Origin: Candidatus Rokuibacteriota bacterium
GTDB lineage: Bacteria > Methylomirabilota > Methylomirabilia > Rokubacteriales > CSP1-6
Assembly: GCA_003220225.1 (NCBI GenBank)
Contig: QHRU01000033.1
Span: forward strand, 1 to 64,000
DNA length: 64,000 nucleotides
Reading direction: 5' to 3'
The translations under genes and the position numbers were made by a program. Position 1 is the first letter of the stretch; each line of letters begins with the position of its first letter. The notes beneath the pieces were generated by a model. It did not search any database, was not told where the DNA came from, and saw only the letters and a list, made by a program, of their open reading frames with translations. Shown piece after piece: positions 10,556 through 59,771 of the stretch.

Positions 10556-10631
<76 letters not shown>

Positions 10632-59258: not shown

Positions 59259-59332
59259 GCGAAGTCTCTCCGATCGCTGAAGGTGGGGTGATTGTGGGCG
59301 ATACCGCGCCGTCCGTCAAACGCTTGGACGGT

Positions 59333-59354
59333 ACTATGCTCTGGCGAGCATAGT
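59333..59354. promoter_or_regulatory. Palindromic operator upstream of the molybdenum hydroxylase operon
   Basis: ACTATGCTC-TGGC-GAGCATAGT: perfect 9-base arms with a 4-base centre. On the minus strand it falls between TTGACT (-35-like, 59351-59356) and a weak TACCGT, so a bound repressor would cover the promoter spacer. TTGGAC at 59324-59329 gives a possible plus-strand -35 as well. A divergent regulator gene is not present; the ModE-like protein is one candidate. Confidence 0.5.
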
Positions 59355-59381
59355 CAACCGGGGCGAGTGTAAAAATGAAAA

Positions 59382-59577
59382 GCCCCGACGATGGCTGCGG
59401 CGCGTTGGTGATGTCACTCGCGCGTCGCGCCGCCCCGCTGGTGAGGCGGGATCGTCGGGGCCGGTGGTGCCTGGACTCCCAGGCGCGCCACCTGGAGCTA
59501 GCGTGGACCCTGCCTAGGAGGCAACCACCTCACAGAGCACCGTAGGGGAACACATCGGCTGGATCACCTCCTATTCT
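59382..59577 (+). ncRNA. Candidate structured RNA with a 16S rRNA 3'-end-like tail
   Basis: Fold seen by eye: an 11-bp stem GCCCCGACGAT/ATCGTCGGGGC (59382-59392/59451-59461) enclosing two hairpins (GCGGCGCG/CGCGCCGC and CCCGC/GCGGG); then GGTGG-t-GCCTGG-ACTC-CCAGGC-gcg-CCACC (59463-59492); then TGCCT-AGG-AGGCA inside GTGG/CCAC (59503-59528). The tail (59540-59573) contains ACCGTAGGGGAAC and GGCTGGATCACCTCCT, both identical to the 16S rRNA 3' end (helix 45 loop and anti-Shine-Dalgarno). Upstream sequence is not 16S. Strand of expression is not certain: the minus strand has a T-run after the 11-bp stem and a small ORF. Confidence 0.5.
59521..59575 (-). CDS. Possible 13-codon leader peptide on the opposite strand
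   Basis: Reading the minus strand of the 16S-like tail: AGGAGGTGATCC (full complement of the anti-Shine-Dalgarno), five bases, then ATG and MCSPTVLCEVVAS followed by TAG. Downstream come the hairpins and the 11-bp stem with TTTTCATTTTT, a terminator-like end. The spacing is ideal for translation. It may be a real leader peptide, or the ATG may be incidental to the 16S-derived sequence. Confidence 0.3.
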
Positions 59578-59771
59578 CGGCAAGGCCACCACGCAGGCCC
59601 AGTTCCCACCTACCCCGAACCAGATGCCGACTCCCGGCCCCGGGCCCGGCCACGTCAGCCGCCGGCGGAATTGTCGGCGGGGACGCTTCAGGAGCGCTGT
59701 TGTCGCTCCGGCCGATTTGCCTCCATCCTACCCCCGGCTTTTTCTCCCTTCAAACAAAAAGTGTCAGTGGC
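59578..59771. other. Intergenic region before comEA-like gene
   Basis: No gene supported. It contains GC-rich inverted repeats (for example GGCCCCGGGCCCGGCC near 59636 and GGAGCG...CGCTCC near 59691-59718) that may end the comEA-like transcript coming from the right. Confidence 0.4.

Follow-up and report, generated by a model that had tools for sequence, protein, structure and literature searches.

The window, by which we mean the whole 64,000-nt stretch analysed (contig QHRU01000033.1, Candidatus Rokuibacteriota bacterium), carries near its end a short segment, positions 59382-59577, in which the plus strand resembles the 3' end of 16S rRNA. An initial annotation had described this segment as a structured element ending in an anti-Shine-Dalgarno (anti-SD) copy. 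Aligned with its homologues, the segment proves to cover no more than a portion of a longer minus-strand element, which appears to be a ~340-nt stand-alone RNA gene (window ~59718-59371). Read on the minus strand, the aligned homologues share the order GTAGGAT box, 5' domain, Shine-Dalgarno sequence (SD), mini-ORF, hairpin, GC stem and a run of T's (Table 1). Upstream in Rokubacteriales lies a gene for a ComEA-like HhH protein (HHH_3) on the same strand, and the downstream neighbour in the window is a co-directional gene for the FAD subunit of a molybdenum hydroxylase. The sole tRNA gene in the window is a tRNA-Phe (GAA) at 10556-10631 on the minus strand.

Table 1. Predicted features of the element, in the order in which they are read on the minus strand (window coordinates)
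Feature	Position	Strand	Basis and remarks
Putative -35 box TTGAAG	59748..59753	-	Sequence only; 17 nt from the -10 box
Putative -10 box TAGGAT	59725..59730	-	GTAGGAT block (gta.gat) conserved in the Rokubacteriales alignment
5' structured domain: UCGGCC/GGCCGG-closed three-way junction followed by a long hairpin	59612..59715	-	RNAalifold and single-sequence fold
Extended SD AATAGGAGGTGATCCAG	59559..59575	-	Complementary to the 16S 3' tail; conserved or G-U compatible in 80 distinct elements
Mini-ORF ATG...TAG, 13 codons, MCSPTVLCEVVAS*	59514..59555	-	Reading frame intact in 80/80 distinct homologues
Second SD-like hexamer GAGGTG, codons -5 and -4	59526..59531	-	9 nt ahead of the stop codon; 5' arm of the long-range helix
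Local hairpin GGTGGCGCGCCTGGGAGTCCAGGCACCACC	59463..59492	-	Folding; competes for the CCACC motif
Motif CACCACC	59463..59469	-	3' arm of the long-range helix, paired with GGUGGU in the ORF
3' domain/terminator-like stem GCCCCGACGA...TCGTCGGGGC, two inner hairpins, loop with UCACC	59382..59462	-	Contains the 11-bp closing stem of the initial annotation
T-rich tail CTTTTCATTTTT after the stem	59371..59382	-	Intrinsic-terminator layout; sequence, with the same layout in most homologues

The resemblance to 16S rRNA exceeds chance. The genome's own 16S gene (G000:C79) ends in GTAGCCGTAGGGGAACCTGCGGCTGGATCACCTCCTTTCT, to which GGCTGGATCACCTCCT on the window's plus strand is an exact 16-nt match, and the two have CCGTAGGGGAAC and CGGCTGGATCACCTCCT in common. 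The annotation had called both blocks exact 16S sequence, which is correct for the 16-nt tail and for 12 nt of the upstream block (CCGTAGGGGAAC), the leading A that it included being a G in the 16S. Across the 6.03 Mb of the genome, the string AGGAGGTGATCC is seen at four places: in the element, antisense of the true 16S and at two unrelated sites. On the minus strand, the supposed anti-SD letters read as a perfect extended SD, AATAGGAGGUGAUCCAG, and a perfect SD is likewise found in the aligned minus-strand homologues (AGGAGGTGRTCCAG). Because the homologues decide the strand, we take the minus strand as the functional reading of the 16S-like letters at 59517-59572 (+), and the alignment identifies the apparent anti-SD as the complement of a Shine-Dalgarno sequence.

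Among 80 distinct elements, positions -3 to +12 of the SD largely complement the 16S tail and positions -3 to +9 are nearly always identical to antisense 16S or G-U compatible, an invariance that is partly selected for the letters with which the search patterns were seeded (GGAGGTG, GTGAGGTGG and CTCCT), the frame, start codon and spacer being unseeded. Opposite a 16S U, the RNA carries A or G and almost no C or T (position +7, A55 G25; position -1, A70 G9). These A/G substitutions keep the pairing of the minus strand with 16S and spoil the identity of the plus strand to it.

This pattern bears on the model of the initial annotation, a plus-strand RNA that exposes an anti-SD and acts as an SD sponge or a mimic of the ribosome end. 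The exact 16-nt match would suit such an RNA, as would a good plus-strand fold (z -4.7 over the annotated segment, compared with -2.7 for the minus strand there and -3.2 for the full minus-strand RNA), and folding does predict the 11-bp stem with two inner hairpins that the annotation had drawn. However, the homologues lose plus-strand identity to 16S while keeping minus-strand pairing, the helix-45 part is not conserved, and the promoter-like boxes, start and stop codons and T-run all lie on the minus strand. Counts of G-U versus A-C (99 vs 75) gave only a mild strand signal. With start, stop and 16S pairing on the minus strand and the helix-45 letters drifting, we rejected the plus strand as the functional one, and consider a sponge or mimic very improbable.

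The extended pattern of helix 45 plus tail was found in two element lineages only (L001, and L005 with L082/L121), besides genuine 16S genes, and the helix-45 letters fall in codons 3-6 of the mini-ORF; for both reasons the helix-45 likeness is regarded as a coincidence or a weak extension of the pairing. A degenerate 16S fragment, the annotation's main alternative, would account for the letters in common with the true 16S end, but the sequence upstream of them is not 16S, no homologue carries a longer, decayed 16S there, and what different phyla conserve, away from rRNA operons, is an SD plus ORF. We give this explanation almost no credence. What survives of the initial annotation is a real and conserved structured RNA tied to SD/anti-SD pairing; its strand and polarity had to be corrected, the seeming anti-SD copy being a minus-strand super-SD. 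As judged from the homologues, neither a sponging anti-SD nor a dead 16S fragment accounts well for the element.

The SD is followed by a mini-ORF of mostly 13-15 codons, which in the aligned copies starts with ATG or GTG at a near-fixed distance from the SD. An in-frame start was present in 80/80 distinct peptides and in 3/80 and 1/80 for the other two frames, the 80 mini-ORFs being a non-independent set. SD-to-start offsets range from 12 to 20 and SD-to-stop distances from 51 to 77, making 13 spacing/length classes, and the frame is kept in every one, with TAG, TAA or TGA as the stop codon. In Rokubacteria, a 3-nt insertion (L023, L028) leaves the reading frame intact and a 1-nt shift in the SD-start spacer is offset by the position of the start, and a 5-nt insertion in L064 and L065 makes an in-frame GTG. 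By this pattern of conservation, the mini-ORF is real as a frame.

The encoded peptide is poorly conserved. Aligned ORFs end in ...CEVV(A/T)S-stop. Residues differ freely at the N-terminus and at the three final positions (S, C, P, F, L, T, G); the exception is E-V, which is fixed at the nucleotide level as GAG GTG. These codons lie exactly three codons before the stop (GAG 80/80, GTG 79/80), an invariance that arises partly by construction, since having GAGGT[G/A] 9 nt ahead of a stop was a condition for entry into the final collection. The puzzle is an ORF that keeps its frame, length and stop position with hardly any conservation of its product. The main rival explanation of the element is a dual-function sRNA/peptide gene, with the 13-15 aa peptide as the active product (a signal, regulator or arrest peptide). 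The strictly conserved frame, start and stop, the C-terminal V-x-C-E-V-V-A-S in many lineages and synonymous variation at codon -3 (GTG/GTT/GTC) all favour such a gene. However, E-V alone is invariant, and that as nucleotides, the N-terminal and last residues are free, and genes for processing, export or modification do not recur beside the element. Dual-function RNAs such as SgrS/SgrT and RNAIII/hld are autonomous sRNAs with a small ORF; the element differs from them in an ORF of only 13-15 codons with little peptide conservation, and in conserving the 16S-tail complementarity and a fixed layout of GAGGUG, 9 nt and stop. We consider a peptide gene unlikely, although it deserves more weight than the other rivals.

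A second conserved feature of the ORF is its pairing with the 3' part of the RNA. The ORF segment GGUGXY is complementary to y'x'CACC just 5' of the terminator stem; this long-range helix has 6/6 pairs in 57 of 65 elements and at least 5/6 in all 65, and in the same set the local competitor helix reaches 6/6 pairs in 8. Natural compensatory sets include GGUGGU:ACCACC, GGUGGC:GCCACC, GGUGAC:GUCACC, GGUGAU:AUCACC and GGUAGU:ACUACC. In a covariation set of 28 distinct but related combinations, 90.8% of cells are paired, compared with 31-78% in slid registers, and four helix pairs are changed on both sides; cells with a double change number 11, where shuffled data give 6.0 +/- 1.8, and the two outer pairs are often unpaired (8/28 and 10/28). 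The G-A that precedes GGUG lies outside this helix yet is part of GAGGUG, which is complementary to CACCUC of 16S; for this reason we would assign GAGGUG a separate role as a second SD.

Upstream, a putative promoter lies ~150 nt from the SD, its GTAGGAT box being present in most Rokubacteriales copies. The closing stem of the 5' domain shows paired changes in RNAalifold (GC/GU/AU and CG/UA/UG). At the 3' end, the aligned copies have a GC stem GCCCCGACGG...CCGTCGGGGC followed by T's, and a GC stem with a T-rich run was located in 78/80 distinct elements, a few of them mislocated. A simple scan of promoters and terminators called neither promoter boxes nor a terminator here; presumably the branched stem made the strict scan miss the terminator. 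In many homologues from different phyla, the SD is preceded by a hairpin whose CUGG-type loop is conserved (GCGGG..CUGG..CCCGC; window 59593-59607, minus strand). In three loci of family f8 (L036, L037, L038) an insertion of ~100-145 nt separates the mini-ORF stop from the 3' hairpin, the remainder being intact. Between the terminator and the next gene, the window also has a short inverted repeat, GACGGTACTATGCTC..GAGCATAGTC (59328-59356).

In 99 genomes searched at the DNA level, nearly every member of the window's family and of its order, Rokubacteriales, carried the element, and it also turned up in one sister family. The initial annotation had proposed a covariance-model search, and this recovered homologues in and beyond Methylomirabilota: 62 of 95 genomes of the phylum carry one copy each, and none was found in five other families. 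A genome-wide pattern scan and two covariance models added loci titled Binatota/Binatia, Deltaproteobacteria, Myxococcales, Acidobacteria and Planctomycetota, and further homologues belong to Actinomycetota and two more groups (L258, L259), the phylum names being taken, for part of these groups, from the title of the genome at the centre of the search. In a broad sample of ~290 genomes outside the window's phylum only 3 had a match, one of which is antisense 16S, so the distribution is patchy. Viral spread was rejected, with 0 matches in IMG/VR. We discarded four R2 matches (L211, L220, L222, L260) as antisense of true 16S, and further loci, such as L107, L116, L117, L122, L131, L133, L143, L144, L149 and L155, as chance pattern matches in coding DNA. 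One locus titled Klebsiella pneumoniae MAG (L150, 819-872) encodes a mini-ORF peptide identical to that of a Deltaproteobacteria MAG (L108) and is probably mislabelled or contaminated.

The annotation's statement that no described family has this layout agrees with Rfam 15, in which the window and seven loci from other groups matched no family at the gathering cut-off; at E values up to 10 the window gave chance-level matches only, far below the cut-offs. An identity with tmRNA or 6S RNA was rejected, since the genome has separate genes for both: the window has no RF00023 match or tRNA-like domain and a genuine tmRNA lies at G000:C166, and the element has no RF00013 match, with 6S RNA at G000:C110. 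Like tmRNA (RF00023), the element would be a stand-alone RNA of ~350 nt whose short internal frame is read by ribosomes; unlike tmRNA, it lacks tRNA-like ends and has its own SD and start codon. Extended SD sites in Staphylococcus aureus, seen structurally, show SD-aSD pairing that runs past the canonical core toward the start codon (PMC13009471); those sites are in ordinary mRNA, whereas the element is complementary to ~13-16 nt of the 16S tail and is a putative small stand-alone RNA gene. The programmed frameshift site of RF2 (prfB) has an SD-like sequence within the ORF near the stop codon; in the element the stop lies 9 nt after GAGGUG, a distance unlike that used for frameshifting, and it is not known to be followed by a long ORF. 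The RF2 site is a topic of PMC12421855, and coding sRNAs are discussed in PMC5521070. The literature on the peptide, on anti-SD small RNAs and on similar sRNAs yielded no match in a search of open-access journal papers, so that an earlier description may exist. What emerges is a candidate single-copy RNA, conserved in several phyla and lacking an Rfam 15 entry, whose core is maximal pairing with the 16S tail together with a 13-codon ORF.

We considered control of neighbouring genes in cis. Downstream genes elsewhere encode a DEAD-box helicase, a cold-shock protein, an ABC1-like kinase, a MoeB/ThiF-like protein or bL31, as identified by eye unless Pfam was run. They vary from one phylum to another and also inside phyla, often lie on the opposite strand as convergent genes, and the phyla have no neighbour in common. 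The regulation of the adjacent molybdenum hydroxylase operon that the annotation had suggested is not supported, because this neighbour is not conserved. A 3' UTR of the upstream ComEA-like gene was also rejected, as that neighbour is conserved in Rokubacteriales only. In two loci of acidobacterial type (L175, L186), bL31 (rpmE) directly follows the element, ~200-260 nt past the mini-ORF; elsewhere it does not. A leader-peptide attenuator, in which translation of the mini-ORF would choose between termination and read-through into the downstream gene, resembles the element in layout: trp- and erm-type attenuators likewise combine a strong SD, a short ORF, competing helices and a terminator hairpin, the short ORF with a strong SD is present here, and the next gene is co-directional in the window (FAD subunit) and is bL31 at the two acidobacterial loci. 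Unlike such attenuators, the element occurs in several phyla as a seemingly self-contained unit, with no conserved or consistently co-directional gene downstream, and the differing, often opposite-strand genes downstream make this reading quite improbable. With neighbours that vary and are frequently convergent, the element is unlikely to exert control in cis and probably works as a trans-acting RNA.

Comparison of the homologues supports an SD with extended 16S complementarity, a conserved frame and stop, a long-range helix, a terminator-like end, a single copy per genome and a variable context. From these features we consider it probable, with some reserve, that the element is a stand-alone minus-strand RNA gene that combines super-SD, frame-kept mini-ORF and long-range helix and acts in trans by capturing or sensing ribosomes; this role is more plausible than that of a source of a specific peptide and is the most likely one. 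In the mechanism that we propose, 30S subunits would dock on the super-SD, and reading of the 13-15 codons would melt the helix between ORF and 3' motif. With a ribosome at the stop codon, GAGGUG would lie 6 nt from the P-site codon, which is typical SD spacing, and by this geometry might retain the terminating ribosome. The RNA would then toggle between a closed and a ribosome-held fold, act in trans, and report or buffer ribosome availability. More tentatively, and with less confidence than in the general role, we suggest an undescribed class of autonomous RNAs in about six phylum-level groups that may sense or buffer the pool of free 30S subunits or of intact anti-SD tails, using a docking site for the full 16S tail, a mini-ORF of little content but constrained in frame and length, a second SD to hold the terminating ribosome and a fold that toggles with ribosome occupancy. 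If true, this would be a new way to couple the fold of an RNA to the state of the ribosome pool.

Three further observations concern SD-like and anti-SD-like motifs. A hairpin between the SD and CCUCCU is strong in Rokubacteria, but was rejected as a universal feature as CCUCCU is lost in many Myxococcota and Acidobacteriota copies. A weak model match (L218, ~1500-1580) has a super-SD and a short ORF in which AGGAGG replaces GAGGTG 9 nt before the stop. The loop of the 3' hairpin contains UCACC (59440-59445, minus strand), an anti-SD-like motif that many phyla keep and that might base-pair with GGUGA in the ORF or with the SD.
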